A DNA stretch of 64,000 nt from Bacteroidota bacterium (GTDB lineage: Bacteria; Bacteroidota; Bacteroidia; Flavobacteriales_F; PHOS-HE28). Under the pieces are notes generated by a model. It was not told the origin of the DNA and did no database searches. It saw only the letters and a program-made list of their open reading frames with translations. Positions within the stretch are counted from its first letter, which is position 1. Each line of letters begins with the position of its first letter. This document shows, piece by piece, positions 48,543-58,688 of this stretch. The stretch spans positions 1 through 64,000 of the forward strand of contig JACTMO010000084.1 of NCBI GenBank assembly GCA_014584605.1. The letters run 5' to 3'. The translations under genes were made by a program, and so were the position numbers.

Positions 48543-49975
48543 CAGGGAAGGGGCCTTGGCGTTCTTTCGCGCCACCAAAGAACGAGCAGAGCGGCAGGGA
48601 GCACGATCGCGAAGAGGGCGGAGGAGGCCGCGGGAGAGAGGCCGAGCTCCACCGGCCATTGCATCCCGGTCCATGCACCCGCTGCGACCTTGGGAAGGAC
48701 TTCGTCGCGCAGGGGCTGAAGGTTCCCCGTCGGGAGCGCGTAACCGATCGTGCTCTTCGCGAGAAAAGCGCAGGCGAGGCCGGCCACGGACAGAACGATC
48801 GTGATGCGCGCAAGCGTCCTTCGAGCGGAAAGCGCAGGGAGCAGACGCACGAAGGGTAGCACGAAAGCGGCGGTCAGGTAGCGCGGGCCGTAGGACCAGC
48901 CGCCCCACCAGGTCGCGTGTGTGAAAAAAGCCAGAACGAGCACGACGGCGGGGAGGATATAGGGGTCGTGGACCCAGGACCGCATCGCCGGGATCCGCCT
49001 TCGGCCGAATGCCAATGGGAAGAGGACGAGCAATGCCGGTGCGTAATGGAACAACCCCCGGTACGCGCTGAAGGTGAGCCCCCAGAAGGCCTCCGGTTGC
49101 CAGGTGCCGAACCCGTAGCGCTGGTGCATGGCCCCATAGTTCACGGCGAACGCGTTCGGGAAGACCAATGGATCCCCCGTGACCAGGGCGTTGTGCACCA
49201 GGACCAGGACGGCCGCTGGCGTCAGGCCCAGCGCGAAACGCAGCATCGCCGAAGGGCGGGCGATGAGCTGTGCCGTCCAGACGATGGCGAAAAGGGCCAG
49301 CGCCGACTCGCAGGCGATGGCCGCCCCCGCCCATAGCCCCGCTGTGCCGGGTCTGCGCGCCTCAAGGCCCCGGGCGGCGAGCAGGGCGAACAACGCTCCG
49401 GGAAGGTGGTTGTAGAAGCTGCCGCTGTACACGAACAGGAAGGAGCCGAGGAAGGGCAGGGTGGACAGCAGCGCAGGCGAGAACCCGCCCTCCACCCGTC
49501 CGGACCGCTGCCAGCACAGGGTGATGATCAGCGCGAGCGACAGGCTGCCGCAGAGGAAGCCGCCGAGCTGCAACAGGCCATCGCTGAAGTAGCCGTGCTC
49601 ACCGGGCTGCACGAGCCCCGTCACTTTGCCGAGCCACCACAACGGGGCCACCACCAGCGTCGGGAGCGGCGCTTTGTCCGAGTAGTACCGGCCGTCGATC
49701 ACGGCCTTGTCCCCGGTGAGCTCATGGTGTGCGGTGATCTCCAGCGAGCCGTGCTCCACCAGCGCCGCCACGGCCAATGCGCGGCTCATGGTGTTGTCGT
49801 TGTGCCCCCGGTCCAGATGCCAGCTGCAGAGCAGCAACATCAACAACAGGACCTGGGCGGTGCGCAAGGCGGTGGGATGGTCCCGCAAGATGCGAAAGGG
49901 GAAGGAGAGCGTTTCGGTGGACGGGTTGTCCAGATCTGGAAAAACGTTAGCTTTCTCCCTACAAACGAATGACAT
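48542..49975 (-). CDS. Polytopic membrane protein, possibly GT-C-type
   Basis: 477 residues with about eleven hydrophobic helices (for example LLLMLLLCSW, FLCGSLSLALIITLCW, LRFALGLTPAAVLVLVH, ILPAVVLVLAFFTHATWWGG). An early periplasmic-type loop holds DRGHNDNTMSRALAVAALVE and YYSDKAPLPTLVVAPLWWLG. This layout resembles uncharacterised glycosyltransferase-like membrane proteins. The listed start overlaps the ATG of the divergent secreted protein at 49974, so a later start (for example a TTG near residue 30) is plausible. It is coupled to rsmE. Confidence 0.72.
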   Translation of the reverse strand: MSFVCREKANVFPDLDNPSTETLSFPFRILRDHPTALRTAQVLLLMLLLCSWHLDRGHNDNTMSRALAVAALVEHGSLEITAHHELTGDKAVIDGRYYSDKAPLPTLVVAPLWWLGKVTGLVQPGEHGYFSDGLLQLGGFLCGSLSLALIITLCWQRSGRVEGGFSPALLSTLPFLGSFLFVYSGSFYNHLPGALFALLAARGLEARRPGTAGLWAGAAIACESALALFAIVWTAQLIARPSAMLRFALGLTPAAVLVLVHNALVTGDPLVFPNAFAVNYGAMHQRYGFGTWQPEAFWGLTFSAYRGLFHYAPALLVLFPLAFGRRRIPAMRSWVHDPYILPAVVLVLAFFTHATWWGGWSYGPRYLTAAFVLPFVRLLPALSARRTLARITIVLSVAGLACAFLAKSTIGYALPTGNLQPLRDEVLPKVAAGAWTGMQWPVELGLSPAASSALFAIVLPAALLVLWWRERTPRPLP

Positions 49976-50921
49976 GCGGGGCCCTTACAGTTGTCTCTTC
50001 GGAGCACTCCTCGTGGTCGGCGTTCAAGCGCAATCCCTCAGGCCACAAGTGATCGCGGGTGGTGGGAGCACCTCCTCGCTGCCCAATGGCGGCACCTTGA
50101 AGTTCACCATCGCACAGCCGGTGATCGGACCGGTGGGATGGCCGAATACGGTGCTCACGCAGGGCTTTCATCAACCGGACCCGGAACGGGTGGGCGTACT
50201 GCCCAAAGTGTTCCTGGACGGTCCGTTGCAGTCCGGGTTGATGAGCGACAACTTGCGCACGCTGCCGAGCTTTCCGCTGACGGAGCCGTACACCGGCCTG
50301 GGTTATACGCACATCGGATCGGGCTTCGAGACCGTGAGCCCTTCCGTGCTCGGTGTCACCGGCAACAACGCCGTCGTCGATTGGGTCTTTCTGGAGCTGC
50401 GTGCGGCCGGCGACAATACCGTGGTAAAGGCCACCGCGGTCGCACTGCTGCAGCGCGATGGGGACGTGGTGGCCCCGGATGGGGTGAACCCCGTCTCGTT
50501 CGTGGCGGTCCCGGGCTTCTATCACCTGGTGGTACTGCACCGCAATCACCTCGCGATCATGTCGGCCAACAGCATCAGCCTGGGCCCACTGGCGGTGCCG
50601 GTCAACTTCACCAACGGCTCGGTGGCCACCTTCGGCGGTGCGGCCGCACAACGGCTCAACGGTGGTGTGCGTGCCATGTGGGCCGGGGATGTCACCGGTA
50701 ACGGCCAGGTGAAGTATGCCGGAGGGACCAACGATCGCGACCCTGTCCTCGTGGCCATCGGTGGTTCGGTACCCACGGCAACATCCTCGGGATACGCAGG
50801 TACGGATGTGAACCTCAATGGCGTGACCAAGTATGCCGGAACGCTTAACGACCGCGACGTGATCCTGACCACCGTTGGTGGCACGGTGCCCACCGCGACG
50901 CGGAGCACTTTCGTGCCCTGA
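49974..50921 (+). CDS. Secreted protein with NDRD-repeat C-terminal module
   Basis: 315 residues. A signal peptide ending VQAQ is followed by QVIAGGGSTSSLPNGGTLKF-type beta-rich sequence (about 20-70, the pattern that opens many T9SS cargos). The rest (about 75-315) is the same module as at the C-terminus of the protease at 31844: PLTEPYTGLGY, VVDWVFLELR, YHLVVLHRNHLAIMS, and two repeats GDVTGNGQVKYAGGTNDRDP and DVNLNGVTKYAGTLNDRDVI, each ending in GG-VPTAT. Repeats with spaced Asp/Asn are dockerin-like and may bind calcium. Function unknown; surface display likely. Confidence 0.82.
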   Translation: MRGPYSCLFGALLVVGVQAQSLRPQVIAGGGSTSSLPNGGTLKFTIAQPVIGPVGWPNTVLTQGFHQPDPERVGVLPKVFLDGPLQSGLMSDNLRTLPSFPLTEPYTGLGYTHIGSGFETVSPSVLGVTGNNAVVDWVFLELRAAGDNTVVKATAVALLQRDGDVVAPDGVNPVSFVAVPGFYHLVVLHRNHLAIMSANSISLGPLAVPVNFTNGSVATFGGAAAQRLNGGVRAMWAGDVTGNGQVKYAGGTNDRDPVLVAIGGSVPTATSSGYAGTDVNLNGVTKYAGTLNDRDVILTTVGGTVPTATRSTFVP

Positions 50922-50952
50922 ACGCTTGAACCCTCCTCCAATCCTCCAGATC

Positions 50953-52032
50953 ATGGACCTCCGTTCGATCCTCTTCGCCTGCTCACTGGCAGTGATCGGC
51001 GTACTTCCGGCGCAGCCGTTTACGCCTTACGGGACCTTCAGCTACCAGGCCGTGGTGCGCGATGCGCTTGGCAACGCCATCCCCGATCAGTTGGTCAACT
51101 TGCGCTTGGGCCTTGGTCCCTGCATCGGTGCGGTCACGTACTGGGAGACCCATCTGGTGACGACTGATGATATCGGGATGGTGAACCTGCGCGTCGGGGC
51201 GGGGACCGTGGAGCTGGGGACCTTCGAGGGCTATGAATGGACGAGCAATTGCCCGCATCGGCTCGAGGTGCAGATCGACCTCACCGGTGGAACCAACTTC
51301 ACACCAGTAGGCGCACCGAGCAGCATCAGTGCCGCGCCGTATGCGATCATCTCGCGCCATGCCCGGACCATGATGGACAGCGCCATGGTGGTGGTGATGC
51401 CTGGTGATCTGTACGTCCATCCGGACTATCAGTTCGGTGTCGGAGTGGCCAACCCGCTGAACAAGCTGGATGTGGAGGGTGCGGCAGTGATCGGTGCATC
51501 CTATGCAGGCACCCATACGGCACCGACCAACGGTCTTTTGGTGCAGGGCAGTGTGGGCATCGGCACCACCAGCCCGGGTGCCTACGGCCTGCTGGTGAAC
51601 GGCTCTGCCGCCAAGCCCGGTGGAGGCAGCTGGTCCAGCAGCTCGGACCTCCGGCTGAAGAAGAACGTCGCGACGCTCACCGGTTCGCTCCACACGCTTC
51701 TCGGCTTGCGCGGGGTGACCTTCGCTTACAAGGACCCCGCCGCCATCCACGAGCTGCCCGGTACGCGCATCGGCTTCATTGCCCAGGAGGTGGAGCAAGT
51801 GCTTCCGGACTGGGTGGAGGAGGTGGACGGCTACAAGCGGCTCACCATCCGCGGCTTCGAGGCGCTGACCGTGGAGGCCCTGCGCGAACTGCAGGCGGAG
51901 AACGCCGGCCTGCGCGCCGAAGTGGAGGCCCTCCGCGACCAACAGGCGCGTGTGCTTGGCGCTCTGGAGCGCGCCGAGGCGCGGCTCGAGGCCATCGAGC
52001 ATGGCACGGCTCCGGTGAAGGCCGAGCGCTGA
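50953..52032 (+). CDS. Tail-fibre-type protein with S74 (endosialidase chaperone) domain
   Basis: 359 residues: signal peptide (ends VLPAQP), then a beta-rich N-terminal domain (FSYQAVVRDALGNAIPDQLV, NLRLGLG, PSSISAAPYAIIS), a VGIGTTSPGAYGLLVNGSA spike-like repeat, and a C-terminal Peptidase_S74 domain (SSDLRLKKNVATLTGSLHTL, GTRIGFIAQEVEQVLPDWVE, VEALRELQAENAGLRAEVE coiled coil). S74 domains are intramolecular chaperones that trimerise and usually self-cleave. Catalytic Ser-Lys are consistent with the SSDLRLKKN motif. In Bacteroidota these proteins are secreted adhesin-like fibres rather than phage parts. It follows the NDRD-module gene by 31 bp. Confidence 0.85.
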   Translation: MDLRSILFACSLAVIGVLPAQPFTPYGTFSYQAVVRDALGNAIPDQLVNLRLGLGPCIGAVTYWETHLVTTDDIGMVNLRVGAGTVELGTFEGYEWTSNCPHRLEVQIDLTGGTNFTPVGAPSSISAAPYAIISRHARTMMDSAMVVVMPGDLYVHPDYQFGVGVANPLNKLDVEGAAVIGASYAGTHTAPTNGLLVQGSVGIGTTSPGAYGLLVNGSAAKPGGGSWSSSSDLRLKKNVATLTGSLHTLLGLRGVTFAYKDPAAIHELPGTRIGFIAQEVEQVLPDWVEEVDGYKRLTIRGFEALTVEALRELQAENAGLRAEVEALRDQQARVLGALERAEARLEAIEHGTAPVKAER

Positions 52033-52080: not shown

Positions 52081-53598
52081 TCATTTCCGGCGGAAGTCCA
52101 GCTTGTAGAAGTGGAAGTCAGGACTGTGCAGGTCCACCTTGAAGCCGCTCACCTTGTGGTCCGCGTCGAAGGTGAAGGTGATGTACCCCGGTTCCAGGAA
52201 CGGATCCGCATGCTGCCACTGGAAAGTGTCGTAGTGCCAGTGCGCCAGCGCCCCGGTCAACAGGTCCTTCGCCGGCTGGAAAGTGAGCTGCAGTGCGCCG
52301 TTCACCGCGGTGATGGTGGCCTCTCCGTAGATCTTGTCCGTGTACGTACCCACGAAGCCGCCGAGCGGGAGCGAGGGCTTGGTCTTGGCCACCCGCGCGC
52401 CGATCCGATCGGCCACGCGCTTGCTGTCGCGCTCCTTCCGTTTGGCGATCCGCGGCAGCATGTCGCCCACCGGGTCCGCCTTGCCCTCGCCCAGCCAGGC
52501 GTCGAGCAGCTTCTGCGTGGCGGCGAACACGCTGTAGCTCTCCCCGTTGCCCAGGGCGATCACCGCCAGGTCCTGGTCGGGCACCACGGCATGGTTCAGG
52601 ATGAAGCCGGGCATGCCCCCGCTGTGGGTGATCACCGCATGGCCATTGGACTCCTCCAGGAACCAGCCCAGCCCGGCACCTTCCGTGCCCATGGGCAGGT
52701 GGCTGCTGGTGATGGTGCGGTAGCTGGCCTCGCTCAGGAACGGCTTCCCGTTCACCTTGCCCTCATCGGCCCACATGGCGTCCCACTTCGCGAGGTCCGC
52801 CACACAGCTGTTCACCCCACAGGCGCCGTCGGCCCCGCGAAGCGGCTGGTAGGGCATGCTCTTCTGCGGGGCGGCGGGGTCCTGTCCCTTGCGCACGTGT
52901 GGCAGCGCCACGTCCGTGAAGCGCGCGAGATCGGCCGTCTCCACCACGGTGCGGGTCATGCCCAGCGGCCCGATGATCCGCGTGGTCAGGAAGGCGTCCC
53001 AGGTCATGCCGCTCACCGCCTCGATGAGCTGTGCGGCCGCGATGAACATCAGGTTGCTGTAACCGAACTCGTCGCGGAAGGGGTGCGTGAAGGGCTCGTG
53101 CGCATGGCGCTCCAGGATCTGGCGCTGGTCGTAGTCCGTCCCGTACCAGAGCAGGTCGCCATCGAAGGTGATCCATCCACTACGGTGGCACAGCAGGTCC
53201 TTCACCAGCATGTGCTCGGTGACATACGCATCCGGCGTCCTGAACCAGGGCAGATGCTTTACTACTGGATCGTTCCAGTCCACCTTGCCCTCGTCCACCA
53301 GCAGGCCCACGGCACAGGCGGTGAAGGCCTTGCTGATGCTGGCCAGGTAGAAGATGCTGTTGGGCGTCACCGGATCGGCCTTGGCCAGATCGAGCTTGCC
53401 GTAGCCCTTGCTCCACACCAGCTGCCCGTCCTTCACCACGCCCACGGCCAGGCCGGGCTGGTCGAATCGCGCCAGGGCATCGGCCATGTAGGCGTTCAGG
53501 GCGGCAAGGTCGGGCTGGGCGCTGGCCAGCAAGGTGCCCAGGGTGAACGGGGCGATCAGGCTCGCGTGAAGGGTCCGGCGTGTCAGGGTGAGGCGCAT
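52081..53598 (-). CDS. Beta-lactamase-fold serine hydrolase (class C / AmpH-like)
   Basis: 505 residues: signal peptide (ends LLASAQ), then a serine beta-lactamase/penicillin-binding fold. Motif 1 is SISKAF (S-x-x-K), motif 2 is GYSN (Y-x-N), and motif 3 is the HSGG (H-x-G) of the family rather than KTG. GMPGFILNHAVVPDQDLAVI follows. A C-terminal DUF3471-like beta domain occupies about 390-505 (GFVGTYTDKIYGEATITAVN). It may hydrolyse peptides, esters or beta-lactams in the periplasm. The start MRLTLTRRTLHASL is chosen for the signal peptide. Confidence 0.93.
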   Translation of the reverse strand: MRLTLTRRTLHASLIAPFTLGTLLASAQPDLAALNAYMADALARFDQPGLAVGVVKDGQLVWSKGYGKLDLAKADPVTPNSIFYLASISKAFTACAVGLLVDEGKVDWNDPVVKHLPWFRTPDAYVTEHMLVKDLLCHRSGWITFDGDLLWYGTDYDQRQILERHAHEPFTHPFRDEFGYSNLMFIAAAQLIEAVSGMTWDAFLTTRIIGPLGMTRTVVETADLARFTDVALPHVRKGQDPAAPQKSMPYQPLRGADGACGVNSCVADLAKWDAMWADEGKVNGKPFLSEASYRTITSSHLPMGTEGAGLGWFLEESNGHAVITHSGGMPGFILNHAVVPDQDLAVIALGNGESYSVFAATQKLLDAWLGEGKADPVGDMLPRIAKRKERDSKRVADRIGARVAKTKPSLPLGGFVGTYTDKIYGEATITAVNGALQLTFQPAKDLLTGALAHWHYDTFQWQHADPFLEPGYITFTFDADHKVSGFKVDLHSPDFHFYKLDFRRK

Positions 53599-53698
53599 CG
53601 CACAAGTGTACAGCATGACGGGTTCAACCGGCACGGAGAACAGCCAGGGAGGCAACCGACCCGTCCCCCTGCGTCCTTGGAGCAGATCACTGCACGCC

Positions 53699-55231
53699 AT
53701 GCGCCCAAGGCCCAACTTGTTCCGAGTCCCGTTCATCTTCGGCACCGTGTTCAGCCTGTGGGCCGCCCACGCCCAGGGACCCTTTTCCCTGAAGTACGCC
53801 GCTCCCTCCGGCCTGGGCTTCTCGGATATCCGGGCCGCCGCGAATGGCGACCTGCTCGTGAGCCCCGGTCGACTGGGCAGCGCCCAGCCACCTGTGCTGC
53901 GGCTCTCTTCCGACGGAACGGTGCTTTGGGCCCTTCGGTCCACCGACCCGCTGGCGCTGCGCGCAGCCCCGTTCGAGACCTCCACCGGCGACCTGGTCCT
54001 CAGCGGCCAGTGGGACAACGTCCTGGGCAGGGCTTGTCCCGCCTTCATCCGCATCAGCGGTGGCGGATCACCATTGGATGCGGTGTACCATCAGGTGGAT
54101 ACCCTGGACCTGGGTCCGCTTGCCGCGGTGCGCACCAGTTCCGGGGACCTGGCCGTGCTGGGCTATTCCGCGTCGCCCTCCACCTTCGCCGTGGTGCGCA
54201 CCGCGCCCGATGGGAGTGGTCCGCAGGGTCGGCTCTTCCCGCAGGCGAACGGAGGCGCGCTCTATGCCGGCCTTGCCCCCGGCATCGCGGACGACCTCGT
54301 CCTCTTCTTCGGCAGTTCCTCCACCAACTCGGTCATCTCCCGGCTGGCGGCGGATGGCACGGTGCTCTGGAGCGAGAGCCTGATCATCGATGGCAGCAAC
54401 AACAACCGCACGTACGAAGCCGTGGTGCTCCCGAGCGGCAACATCCTTCTCGCGATCGAGACCTTGTTCAACCCCACTGCCGGTGAGATGAGCTTGGTGA
54501 TGCTCGACCCCCAGGGTACGGTCCTCTGGTGCAGGCTGCTTGACCATCCCGTCCGCGACTTTGGCGAGGTCATGCTCACGCCGCTTCCGGGTGGCGACAT
54601 CCTCATCGAGGACATCCTCCTGGCCACGGTGCCCTACGACAACAGTGTCCTGCTGCGCATGACCGAGAACGGCGATGTGCTCTGGCAGGTGGCTCCGGAC
54701 CCCGCCCTGGCGGCGTTCACCGCCGTGGCGTTGGACGATGATCATCTTGTCCGCTGCGGCGCCAGCGCCCCGGACCGGTCCAGCGTGGAGCTCATCGACC
54801 TCACCGCGCTGCCGCCTCCGTGCGGGGAAGCGGACAGTCTGGGTGTGCTGACCGTCGTGGCGACCGCCAACCCCTTGGTGCACTCCTCCTCGGTGCCGCT
54901 CATCACCTCGGTGCCGTTCACGCCATCCTTCGATCCGCTCACCGTCACCGCCGCTCCGCTTTGCCTTTCCACCGGCAGCGCGGTGAGGGAGGGGAACGAC
55001 CAGGGCCTCGTGCTCTATCCGGTGCCGTCGGAAAGCGGTCTGGTCCATGTCAGTGGCGGTGCCCCGGGCGACCGCTGGACCTACCGCGTGATCTCGCTCA
55101 CCGGCCAGCTGCTGGCCCAAGGTGTGGCCGAGGCGTCCAGGCCGCTGGACCTTCGCGAACTGCCGCCCGGGGAGCATGTGCTGGAGCTCATCGGGCCCCG
55201 CACCGTTCATCGCACGCGGTTCACGCGTTGA
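53699..55231 (+). CDS. Secreted beta-propeller protein with T9SS type A sorting domain
   Basis: 510 residues. Signal peptide about 1-25 (ending AAHAQG), then repeated blades each ending in a tryptophan-bearing strand: LRLSSDGTVLWALR, SRLAADGTVLWSESL, VMLDPQGTVLWCRL, LRMTENGDVLWQVA. The C-terminal 70 residues (YPVPSESGLVHVSGG, YRVISLTGQLLAQG, LRELPPGEHVLEL, RFTR end) form a type A T9SS sorting domain. Probably a cell-surface or released protein of unknown function. Confidence 0.82.
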   Translation: MRPRPNLFRVPFIFGTVFSLWAAHAQGPFSLKYAAPSGLGFSDIRAAANGDLLVSPGRLGSAQPPVLRLSSDGTVLWALRSTDPLALRAAPFETSTGDLVLSGQWDNVLGRACPAFIRISGGGSPLDAVYHQVDTLDLGPLAAVRTSSGDLAVLGYSASPSTFAVVRTAPDGSGPQGRLFPQANGGALYAGLAPGIADDLVLFFGSSSTNSVISRLAADGTVLWSESLIIDGSNNNRTYEAVVLPSGNILLAIETLFNPTAGEMSLVMLDPQGTVLWCRLLDHPVRDFGEVMLTPLPGGDILIEDILLATVPYDNSVLLRMTENGDVLWQVAPDPALAAFTAVALDDDHLVRCGASAPDRSSVELIDLTALPPPCGEADSLGVLTVVATANPLVHSSSVPLITSVPFTPSFDPLTVTAAPLCLSTGSAVREGNDQGLVLYPVPSESGLVHVSGGAPGDRWTYRVISLTGQLLAQGVAEASRPLDLRELPPGEHVLELIGPRTVHRTRFTR

Positions 55232-55255
55232 CCGTCGCGTTCGCGGAAGTCGGCC

Positions 55256-55263
55256 TACCTTCG
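55256..55263 (+). promoter_or_regulatory. -7 promoter box TACCTTCG
   Basis: TAnnTTCG box 14 bp before the ATG at 55278 of the DVKA-repeat protein. A TTG at 55228-55230 could be the -33 element, although the 25-bp spacer is longer than usual. Confidence 0.5.
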
Positions 55264-55277
55264 GGAAAAGCCATCCC

Positions 55278-56291
55278 ATGCGCATCCTCCATGTGTTCTC
55301 CGCCTGGGCGCTCGTGCTGCCCCTCTGGATCCACGCGCAGACCGGCCCGATCATCTGGAACATCAAGGCCGTGCTGCCCAACGGGACCACGTTGGATGTG
55401 AAGGCCTTCGACCGATCAGGTCGCGTATTGGACGTGAAGGCCCTCGAAGAGGACGATACCCATGTGCTGGACGTCAAGGCCCTCGACGGCGGCTCCCTCC
55501 TTGCCGTCAAGGTGCTCGCCGCAGAGGAGGCGATGCGGCCCGTGAAGGCGATCACGGCGAAGGGCGACGTGTTGGACGTGAAGGCCATCGGGCCCGACGG
55601 TCGCCGCCTGGATGTGAAAGGCGTGGCCCGCGCAGGGCACCTGGTCCACATCAAGGCCATCGGCGAGGACCGTGCGCTCTTCGCCGTGAAAGCCATCGCA
55701 CCGGACGGCCGCATGCGTGACGTGAAGGGTCTGGAGCTTTCCGATGAGGAGGAGCGCGCGAACGGCGTGGCCATCGAGGCGCATGTGAAGGCCCTGCCGC
55801 ACCCCACCGATCACGACAACGATCCCGTGTGGAACGTGAAGTGCGTGCAACCGGATGGTCACCTGCTCGGCATCAAGGCCATCGATGCGGCCGGTACGCT
55901 CCATGACGTGAAGGCCCTGCTGGCCAATGGCGACGCCACCGTGCTCGATATCCGAGCCTTGGTGAACGGCCGGGAGGTGCCCTTGAAGGTCCTCGCCACG
56001 CAGGGATCGCCGATGCCGGTGAAGGCCGTGCTACCCGATGGCACCCTTCTGGATGTGAAGGCCGTGGCCTCCGATGGCACCCGCCTGCCGGTGAAGGCCG
56101 TACGCCGGCTCGGCAATGTGTTCGACATCAAGGCGCTGGCCCCGGACGGTCGTGAGATGGGCGTGAAGGCCGTATCGCCCCACGGTCTTTTCTACGACGT
56201 GAAAGGAGTGAAGCTGAACGCGGCCGACGTGGAGGGCACGGTGAACGGGGTGGCGTTCCGCGCCCACGTGAAGGCGCTTCCACAACCCTGA
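55278..56291 (+). CDS. Secreted protein of 24 DVKA-type repeats
   Basis: 337 residues: signal peptide (1-20, ends WIHAQ), then about 24 tandem units of mostly 11-13 residues with consensus DVKAi-pdGr-l (examples DVKAIGPDGRRL, PVKAVLPDGTLL, DVKALDGGSLL). The units fall into two blocks of twelve. Each block opens with a WN[IV]K unit (IIWNIKAVLPNG; PVWNVKCVQPDG) and closes with a long unit followed by AHVKALP. So the gene looks like a block duplication of about 160 residues. The short strand-turn unit predicts a beta-solenoid or propeller-like fold. No known enzyme motif; no T9SS tail. It sits among secreted-protein genes, upstream of the MacAB operon on the other strand. Confidence 0.88.
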   Translation: MRILHVFSAWALVLPLWIHAQTGPIIWNIKAVLPNGTTLDVKAFDRSGRVLDVKALEEDDTHVLDVKALDGGSLLAVKVLAAEEAMRPVKAITAKGDVLDVKAIGPDGRRLDVKGVARAGHLVHIKAIGEDRALFAVKAIAPDGRMRDVKGLELSDEEERANGVAIEAHVKALPHPTDHDNDPVWNVKCVQPDGHLLGIKAIDAAGTLHDVKALLANGDATVLDIRALVNGREVPLKVLATQGSPMPVKAVLPDGTLLDVKAVASDGTRLPVKAVRRLGNVFDIKALAPDGREMGVKAVSPHGLFYDVKGVKLNAADVEGTVNGVAFRAHVKALPQP

Positions 56292-56295
56292 ACGC

Positions 56296-57408
56296 TCAGT
56301 TCACCGTGACACCAGCGCCCTCCTTGTCCTCGATCTTGGCACCCTTCAGTTCGGTCTCGGGCGATACACCCTCGAGCACCTCGAGGTTGATGCCGTCGCT
56401 GAGGCCGGTGCGGATGTAGGTCTTCTTCCATTCCTCTCCGTTCCTGACCTGCACGAAGGCGCTGTCGCCCTTGTCGTTGAACTCCACGATGCTCTCGGGC
56501 ACGGTGAGCACGCTGTCCCGCCGTTCCAGCACGATGTCGGCGTTGGCGCTGTAACCGCTGCGCAGGCTCTGGCCGTCCTTGAGCTTCACGGCCGCGCGGA
56601 TCTCGAACTGGATGGCGCCGTTCTCCTCGACCCCCTTGGGTGCGATGTACTCCAGCTCGGCGTCCCACCGGGCGTTCTCGATGGCGCCCACGGTGAGCAC
56701 CACGGGCATGCCCAGCTTCACCTTGCCCACCTCGCTCTCGTCCACCTTGCCCTGGAAGATCAGGTCGTTCATGTCGGCGATGGCGGCGATGGTGGTGCCC
56801 TCGTTGAAGTTGTTGCGCTCGATCACGCTGTTGCCCTCCTTCACCGGTACGTCCAGCACCATGCCGTCGATGGTGCTGCGCACCACGGTGTTGCCGGCGC
56901 TGCTGCGGCTGATGCCGTCGCGCACCACCTGCAGGGCCTCCCGGGCCGCAGCCACCTCCTGGTCGGCGTTCTTCAGGGCGACGTCGAAGGTCTGCATCTC
57001 GGCGGCGCTGATCACGCCCTTGTCGGCCAGGGGCTTGTTGCGGTCGAAGTTGAGCCGTGCGTTCTGCTGGGCGATCTCCGCGTTGCCCACCCGGTTCTCG
57101 GCGTTGCTCAGGCTCAGCATGTCGGGCACGATCTTGATCTTGGCCAGCGGCTGGTCGCGCTTCACCTCATCGCCGGCCTCCACGTACAATTCGGCGATGA
57201 TCCCGCTCACCACGGGCTTGATCAGGATCTCCTTGCGCGGCACCATCTTGCCGTTGGCCACGGTCTTCTTCACCACGTTGTTGCGCGCGGGCTTCTCCAC
57301 CTTGAACTCGTCCGGGCGGCTGGCGCTCTTCTCGTAGAGGAAATACATGGTCCACACGAAGAGGACGGCCAGGCCGGCGAGAAGCAGGTACTTGAGGATC
57401 TTTTTCAT
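56296..57408 (-). CDS. MacA/HlyD-type periplasmic adaptor (membrane fusion protein)
   Basis: 370 residues: an N-terminal membrane anchor (MKKILKYLLLAGLAVLFVWT), first lipoyl half (VSGIIAELYVEAGDEVKRDQ), a helical hairpin (about 95-170), second lipoyl half (STIDGMVLDVPVKEGNSVIE), then a beta-barrel domain. It links inner-membrane MacB-type permeases to an outer-membrane channel. It closes the operon after two FtsX-type permeases and an ATPase. A start at 57444 would overlap the upstream stop by 4 bases (ATGA) and add 12 residues; the shorter start begins at the anchor. Confidence 0.92.
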   Translation of the reverse strand: MKKILKYLLLAGLAVLFVWTMYFLYEKSASRPDEFKVEKPARNNVVKKTVANGKMVPRKEILIKPVVSGIIAELYVEAGDEVKRDQPLAKIKIVPDMLSLSNAENRVGNAEIAQQNARLNFDRNKPLADKGVISAAEMQTFDVALKNADQEVAAAREALQVVRDGISRSSAGNTVVRSTIDGMVLDVPVKEGNSVIERNNFNEGTTIAAIADMNDLIFQGKVDESEVGKVKLGMPVVLTVGAIENARWDAELEYIAPKGVEENGAIQFEIRAAVKLKDGQSLRSGYSANADIVLERRDSVLTVPESIVEFNDKGDSAFVQVRNGEEWKKTYIRTGLSDGINLEVLEGVSPETELKGAKIEDKEGAGVTVN

Positions 57409-57440
57409 GGGTGCGCTGGGGTTCTGTCGGGTGTATGGGG

Positions 57441-58688
57441 TCATTCGGCGCGCAGGGCGTCCACGGCCTTGATGGCCAGGGCGCGCCGGGCGGGCAACAG
57501 CCCGGCGAACAGACCGCTGATGAGGAGCACGGCGAAGGCTACCAGCGCGACGAAGAGGTCCACGCCGGGATCCTTGAAGAAATCGGCCTCACCGGCCACC
57601 GCACGCACGGTCTCCAGCACGCCCACCCCCGCCAGCAGACCGAAATAGCCGGCGATGAGGGTGAGGGTGAGGGCCTCCTGCACGATCTGCCCCGTGATGT
57701 TGCGCGGCGTGGCGCCCAGGCTGCGGCGGATGCCGATCTCCTTGGTGCGCTCCTGGATGCTCACCAGCATGATGTTGCCGATGCCGATGGCGCCGGCCAG
57801 CAGCGTGCAGATGCCCACGAACCAGCTGAGCCCGCCGATGCCCAGGAAAAGGCCGTTCATCATGCCGTAGAACTCCTGCATGTTCCAGCTGCCGAAGGCG
57901 CTCTCGTCGGTGGGGTCCACCCGGTGCTTGCGCGCCATCAACTGCCGCACCTGGTGCTCCACCTGCCCCACGTCCACGCCGGGCTCGGCCACCAGCGTGA
58001 ACCAATGGACCTCGTTGAGGGCGTTGAAGGCCTTCTGGAAGGTGGTGAAGGGCACGTAGATCTTGGCGTCGGGATTGTCGCCCATCTCGGCGCTGCTCTT
58101 CTTCTTGCTCACCCCCACCACCTGGAAGTACACCCCGTTGATCTTGATGTACCTGCCGATGGGGTCCTCGGGTTTGAACAGCTGGTCCACCACGTCCTGC
58201 CCGATCACGGCCACCTTGCGCGCCTCGTTCAGGTCGGCGTGGTTCAGGAAGCGACCCCGTGGCAGGCGCACGGCCTCCACCAGCATCACCTCCGGTTCCG
58301 AGCCGTACACGCTGAAGGCGCCGATCTTGCTGCCGTAGCTCACGTTGTTGCCGCTGCGCCAGCCGCCCAGTTGCAGCTGGGGCGAGCACACGGCGATGCC
58401 CGGCACGTTCCTGCGGATGATGTCGATGTCCTCGTTGTCGAAGGTGAACCGGCGTCCCTTCTGGAATCCCGCGTACGGCTTGGTGGTGGGCATGGTCCAC
58501 AGGAAGCAGCTGTTGGTGGCGAAGCCCTCGAAGCCGCCCAGCACGGCGTTCTTCAGCCCGTTGCCCATGCCCAGCATCACCACCAGCATAAAGATGCCCC
58601 AGCCCACGCCGAACATGGTGAGGAAGCTGCGCAGCTTGTTCCTGCTCAGCGTGTTCCAGATCTCGCCCCAACGGTCGTTGTCGAACAT
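57441..58688 (-). CDS. MacB-type ABC transporter permease (second copy)
   Basis: 415 residues: one N-terminal membrane helix (LRSFLTMFGVGWGIFMLVVM), a large periplasmic core domain (MacB_PCD, about 45-270), and a C-terminal FtsX region with three helices around SIQERTKEIGIRRSLGATPR (coupling helix). It mechanically couples cytoplasmic ATP hydrolysis to periplasmic export. The start MFDNDRWGEIWNTL parallels MFDREKWAEVLDSI of the upstream permease, so the two form a heterodimer from a tandem duplication. The upstream gene's stop is 4 bp away. Confidence 0.93.
   Translation of the reverse strand: MFDNDRWGEIWNTLSRNKLRSFLTMFGVGWGIFMLVVMLGMGNGLKNAVLGGFEGFATNSCFLWTMPTTKPYAGFQKGRRFTFDNEDIDIIRRNVPGIAVCSPQLQLGGWRSGNNVSYGSKIGAFSVYGSEPEVMLVEAVRLPRGRFLNHADLNEARKVAVIGQDVVDQLFKPEDPIGRYIKINGVYFQVVGVSKKKSSAEMGDNPDAKIYVPFTTFQKAFNALNEVHWFTLVAEPGVDVGQVEHQVRQLMARKHRVDPTDESAFGSWNMQEFYGMMNGLFLGIGGLSWFVGICTLLAGAIGIGNIMLVSIQERTKEIGIRRSLGATPRNITGQIVQEALTLTLIAGYFGLLAGVGVLETVRAVAGEADFFKDPGVDLFVALVAFAVLLISGLFAGLLPARRALAIKAVDALRAE

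Follow-up and report, generated by a model that had tools for sequence, protein, structure and literature searches.

How does a protein fold, and what might it do, when almost its whole length is a single 12-residue unit repeated 24 times behind a signal peptide? We address these questions for one gene in a 64,000-nucleotide stretch of Bacteroidota DNA, the whole of which is referred to here as the window.

Repeat anatomy and family

The gene and its parts were delineated as follows:

55278..56291, plus strand: DUF7486 gene, 337 aa, two domains (open reading frame and translation; Pfam PF24307, E=1e-95, 317.8 bits, in two stretches)
55278..55340, plus strand: signal peptide, residues 1-21 (MRILHVFSAWALVLPLWIHA, followed by Q), Sec type, without a lipobox cysteine (sequence reading; low pLDDT over 1-21)
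55350..55796, plus strand: block 1, a DUF7486 domain of 12 units of ~12 aa, WNIK...AHVKALP (profile positions 3-154 of 154; unit count; 12 strands in AlphaFold2)
55827..56279, plus strand: block 2, a DUF7486 domain of 12 units, WNVK...AHVKALP (profile positions 4-154 of 154; unit count; 12 strands in AlphaFold2)

The reading frame starts with ATG, and the signal peptide that the preliminary description had placed before the repeats is borne out, ending at about residue 21 (WIHA/QTG). That description had also counted 24 units in two blocks of twelve, bordered by WN[IV]K and AHVKALP, and it was accurate almost to the residue. The motif [VIL][KR][ACGVT] occurs exactly 24 times in the 337 residues, twelve times per block, at positions 29, 41, 53, 66, 77, 89, 101, 113, 125, 137, 149 and 170 in block 1 (spacings 12,12,13,11,12,12,12,12,12,12,21) and 187, 199, 211, 225, 236, 248, 260, 272, 284, 296, 308 and 331 in block 2 (spacings 12,12,14,11,12,12,12,12,12,12,23). 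The blocks open with WNIK (residues 27-30) and WNVK (185-188), respectively, and both end in AHVKALP (168-174 and 329-335). The stricter motif [VIL]K[AGV] was observed 22 times; 2,000 shuffles gave 2.5 on average and never more than 8. Because the codons used for the V-K-A units vary (GTG/GTC/ATC/TTG with AAG/AAA) and the two blocks are 48% identical to one another, the sequence indicates that the repeat is old and no product of recent DNA slippage. On the minus strand, a 579-codon open frame (window 54068-55807) lies antisense to the gene and probably arises from high G+C and codon bias.

The preliminary description recognized no named family; a profile search supplies one, PF24307 (DUF7486), whose 154-position profile matches twice over nearly its whole length, far above the curated cut-off of 27 bits. 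With both blocks matching at full length and no difference found from the family, the profile identifies the protein as a two-domain member of PF24307. Pfam annotates DUF7486 as a family of unknown function, so the match leaves the protein unexplained. We found no literature naming "DUF7486" or "DVKA repeat", no corresponding NCBIfam family, and no significant PDB sequence with either the protein or a 12-row profile as query. Matches to PepSY_2, TonB_C and DUF6501 were rejected as sums of short repeat matches.

A domain of fixed size

Our comparison set comprised 75 domains, drawn from 48 proteins at related loci (about half of them two-block and half single-block) together with the two blocks of the window protein. 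All 75, from many genera, are 151-155 aa long and nearly always cover the whole profile. Proteins carry either one block, in which case they have about 175-234 aa, or two, with about 335-403 aa wherever the reading frame has a clear start, and among the 48 proteins and the window protein partial block counts occur at contig ends only. This constant length, with one or two blocks per protein, marks the block of twelve as an independent domain of fixed size. The preliminary description had named random variation in unit number as evidence that would count against its reading, and the comparison across genomes refutes such variation: every complete homologue has 12 units per block.

Two genomes (loci L118 3986-5301 and L119 6409-7730) contain paired adjacent single-block genes, one apparently encoding a lipoprotein and the other a protein with a Sec signal. 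Fusion of such neighbours is a plausible route to the two-block form. One genome (G134) encodes two diverged two-block paralogues (L039 and L040), 44% identical and ~36 kb apart. A domain tree places first and second blocks from the window's own genus in separate groups; between lineages, block 1 is no nearer to block 1 than to block 2, and the blocks may thus have been duplicated more than once.

The units themselves follow a strict rule. Lys occupies position 0 in 90% of 900 unit positions (97% in the two-block set), position -1 nearly always holds V, I or L, and A or G follows at +1 in all units but unit 5. In the block 1 numbering of the window protein, W27, H169, G151, K78 (100%), P76, D45, E158 and G163 are invariant or nearly so, and all of these other than K78 stand out beyond the repeat rule, a pattern that suggests specific sites or core positions.

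Predicted fold

A single block, modelled with AlphaFold2 from a 12-row alignment, gives the confident fold that the preliminary description had proposed to look for (pLDDT 90.5, pTM 0.87; five models agree at 89.5-90.5). The model has 12 main strands, one per unit, and no significant helix, just a 3-residue helical turn. The full-length model also has 12 strands per block, but with a pTM of 0.50 and five disagreeing models it was not used as a basis for the fold. The loops between the strands of block 1 measure 5,5,6,2,6,5,5,2,5,5,11 residues: the turn is tight, at two residues, after strands 4 and 8 alone, and the last loop, ahead of strand 12, is long. The longest strands of block 1 are 8 and 12; those of block 2 are 4, 8 and 12, and there the turn after strand 3 is short as well. 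In the model, the turn spacing of block 1 thus points to three groups of four strands.

The preliminary description had predicted a solenoid or closed propeller with two equal halves. The equal halves stand, since one block folds confidently alone and single-block homologues occur naturally; neither proposed architecture is supported. An open beta-solenoid or single-layer sheet of the OspA or MORN kind, in which closure would be irrelevant, could account for the regular 12-aa units, and OspA appears low in the full-protein Foldseek list and MORN proteins in the viral list. These matches are weak (E about 0.05-1), and unit numbers could vary in an open solenoid whereas every domain has exactly 12, so we regard such a structure as improbable. 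OAA/BOA agglutinins, like OspA, have repeated antiparallel strands and are among the weak Foldseek matches, but neither they nor OspA show significant similarity to DUF7486; their repeat units are larger (about 66 aa and hairpins, respectively). The blade of a beta-propeller consists of four antiparallel strands, and blades are arranged around an axis. Twelve single strands would make only three blades per block, the loop spacing is three-part, and propellers are just scattered weak matches, with none among the top structural ones. Together, the confident 12-strand fold of one block and the fixed unit count favour a closed domain over an open solenoid or WD-type propeller.

A beta-trefoil is such a closed domain, with 12 strands in three four-strand units that form a six-strand barrel and a triangular cap. 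Foldseek against PDB and BFVD returned no match at E<=0.001 for the DUF7486 models. A domain comparison with VIA-align, which covered Foldseek's top 1000 chains so that a family missing there is no evidence, gave a best Z of 4.2, and ~47 of the best 50 matches are beta-trefoils, as judged from their titles. Several unrelated trefoil families dominate this list: FGF1, Symfoil, ricin-B type lectins, IP3R/RyR, MIR and a clostridial toxin receptor-binding domain. It is therefore quite possible, if short of probable, that the DUF7486 domain is a true, divergent trefoil and a lectin-like module, for it shares with FGF, ricin-B lectins and IP3R/RyR the 12 strands in ~150 residues and the predicted 3 x 4 spacing of tight turns and long strands. 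Unlike those proteins, it bears the same 12-residue motif on every strand, and the trefoil alignments reach a Z of only 3-4 over 80-96 of 155 residues at 4-5 A. No three-fold internal repeat was detected in its sequence: at offset 4, units resemble each other no more than expected by chance (p=0.56), with offset 3 slightly raised (p=0.03). A three-fold sequence repeat is common in beta-trefoils, but not obligatory. No trefoil family is among the weak Pfam matches. Given the low Z and the missing three-fold signal between units, we take the structural matches as a hint of trefoil architecture and not as membership.

We consider it possible, with somewhat more doubt, that DUF7486 is a new closed beta fold in which twelve near-identical 12-residue single-strand units each present a near-invariant lysine. 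In that case a short peptide would have been amplified into a globular domain of fixed count, in contrast to known closed folds with their 3 x 40-residue or 6 x 40-residue repeats. The family is catalogued with no described function, and its predicted fold has no good PDB match; it is an uncommonly clear natural case for testing how a 12-residue peptide can be amplified into a closed domain of exact copy number. Since the domain is predicted to fold well, it is also a tractable target for a first PF24307 structure.

A protease-inhibitor function of the PepSY kind is very improbable. PepSY_2 (PF13670) scores above cut-off in several relatives (L012, L013, L014, L039, L040 and L049; up to E=8e-9), and its hairpin with a D-G turn resembles one pair of DUF7486 units. 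Many short matches to that same hairpin add up to this score, no single stretch passes alone, and the complete PepSY_2 domain with its helix is not found in DUF7486, whose model has only the 3-residue turn.

Export and proposed role

By eye and by a simple pattern, DUF7486 members of the window's own genus carry Sec signals and many Flavobacteriaceae-like members a lipobox cysteine; on this sequence evidence, the protein most likely acts outside the cytoplasm. Lipoprotein members begin CKEIE, CKEV, CEKT, CNDG or CKN. These starts only partly resemble the Capnocytophaga surface-export signal K-(D/E)2 (PMC5080379), and we make no claim of surface exposure.

Our best guess is that DUF7486 serves as an extracytoplasmic module for ligand binding or adhesion. 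More specifically, we tentatively propose an exported ligand-binding module of one or two rigid closed domains. Computation shows the anatomy, the family, the constant unit count, the independent folding of a single block, the signals for secretion and the accessory distribution, whereas the binding, the exact fold and the location beyond the inner membrane are inferred. We found no ligand, catalytic or sugar-binding motif, and no conserved genomic partner points to a substrate; many beta-trefoils bind ligands. The proposed mechanism would involve the following steps:

(i) The Sec signal peptide would direct the export of two tandem, closed, all-beta DUF7486 domains, each built of twelve consecutive 12-residue units with a strand and a turn apiece.

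(ii) Within a unit, V/I at position -1 and A/G at +1 flank the nearly invariant Lys at position 0, and a P/D-G turn leads into the next strand. By strand alternation, V and A would share one face, with K and D on the opposite one.

(iii) Twelve strands, in three groups of four with tight turns after strands 4 and 8, would close the domain.

(iv) The resulting rigid domain would offer a ligand-binding surface outside the cytoplasm, whose target might be a glycan, some other polymer of the envelope or surface, or another cell; two copies would permit two-site binding.

Polyanion binding through the lysines is not obvious, as the net charge of the DUF7486 core is near zero in the window's genus.

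The main rival to a ligand-binding module is a structural spacer or coat, a stiff beta module that would act by its bulk on the envelope, as a stalk or protective layer, with no specific ligand. Extreme regularity, the lack of a catalytic motif, the presence of one or two modules and export all suit such a part. Spacers usually vary beyond one or two modules and need no invariant W, H or G, whereas the unit number of DUF7486 is fixed, and we consider a spacer unlikely.

Distribution and genomic context

DUF7486 is present in 10 of the 45 genomes of the window's own genus and, within the same class, in 34/397 genomes and 25/237 genera of a Flavobacteriaceae-like family. It is rare in broad samples, where 4/395 genomes (class) and 2/395 (phylum) exceed the cut-off; 14 control genomes, plasmids and viral contigs yielded none. 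Single matches in two further genomes (G213 and G712) fall below the cut-off, the latter within a response-regulator-like frame.

Three genes of the window surround the DUF7486 gene:

52081..53604, minus strand: beta-lactamase-fold hydrolase (Beta-lactamase + DUF3471), the other flank of the locus
53588..55231, plus strand: upstream gene with propeller-like repeats and a C-terminal sorting-type tail (weak PQQ_2 match), 46 bp before the DUF7486 gene
56296..57444, minus strand: HlyD-type membrane fusion protein of a MacB-type ABC system, convergent, core to the genus (39/45 genomes)

The propeller-like gene accompanies DUF7486 in only some relatives (the window, L009 and L012), and L010 and L044 have no such gene between beta-lactamase and DUF7486; it is therefore no fixed partner. 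In the window's own genus DUF7486 usually lies between the beta-lactamase-like gene and a convergent HlyD/MacB/ATPase cluster, and in two genomes (L045 and L049) it is located elsewhere. In close relatives that lack it (L058, L059 and L061), the membrane fusion protein gene directly faces the beta-lactamase-like gene (compare window 52081-57444). With the same two flanks directly adjacent in relatives that lack it, DUF7486 behaves within the genus as an accessory single gene, inserted or lost with gene order otherwise intact. We rejected reasoning from an operon or a partner, the MacB system included, on account of these empty sites, of the disparity between 39/45 genomes with the membrane fusion protein and 10/45 with DUF7486, and of the lack of any conserved or widespread neighbour of DUF7486 across genera. 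Because neighbours differ between genera, no pathway can be read from them.

Farther upstream in the window, the C-terminus (window 50500-50900) of the protein encoded at 49707-50921 contains two similar motifs, GDVTGNGQVKYAGGTNDRDPVL and TDVNLNGVTKYAGTLNDRDVIL, like a calcium-type repeat tail; no Pfam family matches this protein, which has close relatives at the same place in L009 and L010. The adjoining region of this Flavobacteriales genome (window 50875-52032) encodes a protein that ends in a Peptidase_S74 (endosialidase chaperone) domain and is conserved beside the locus in L009 and L010.
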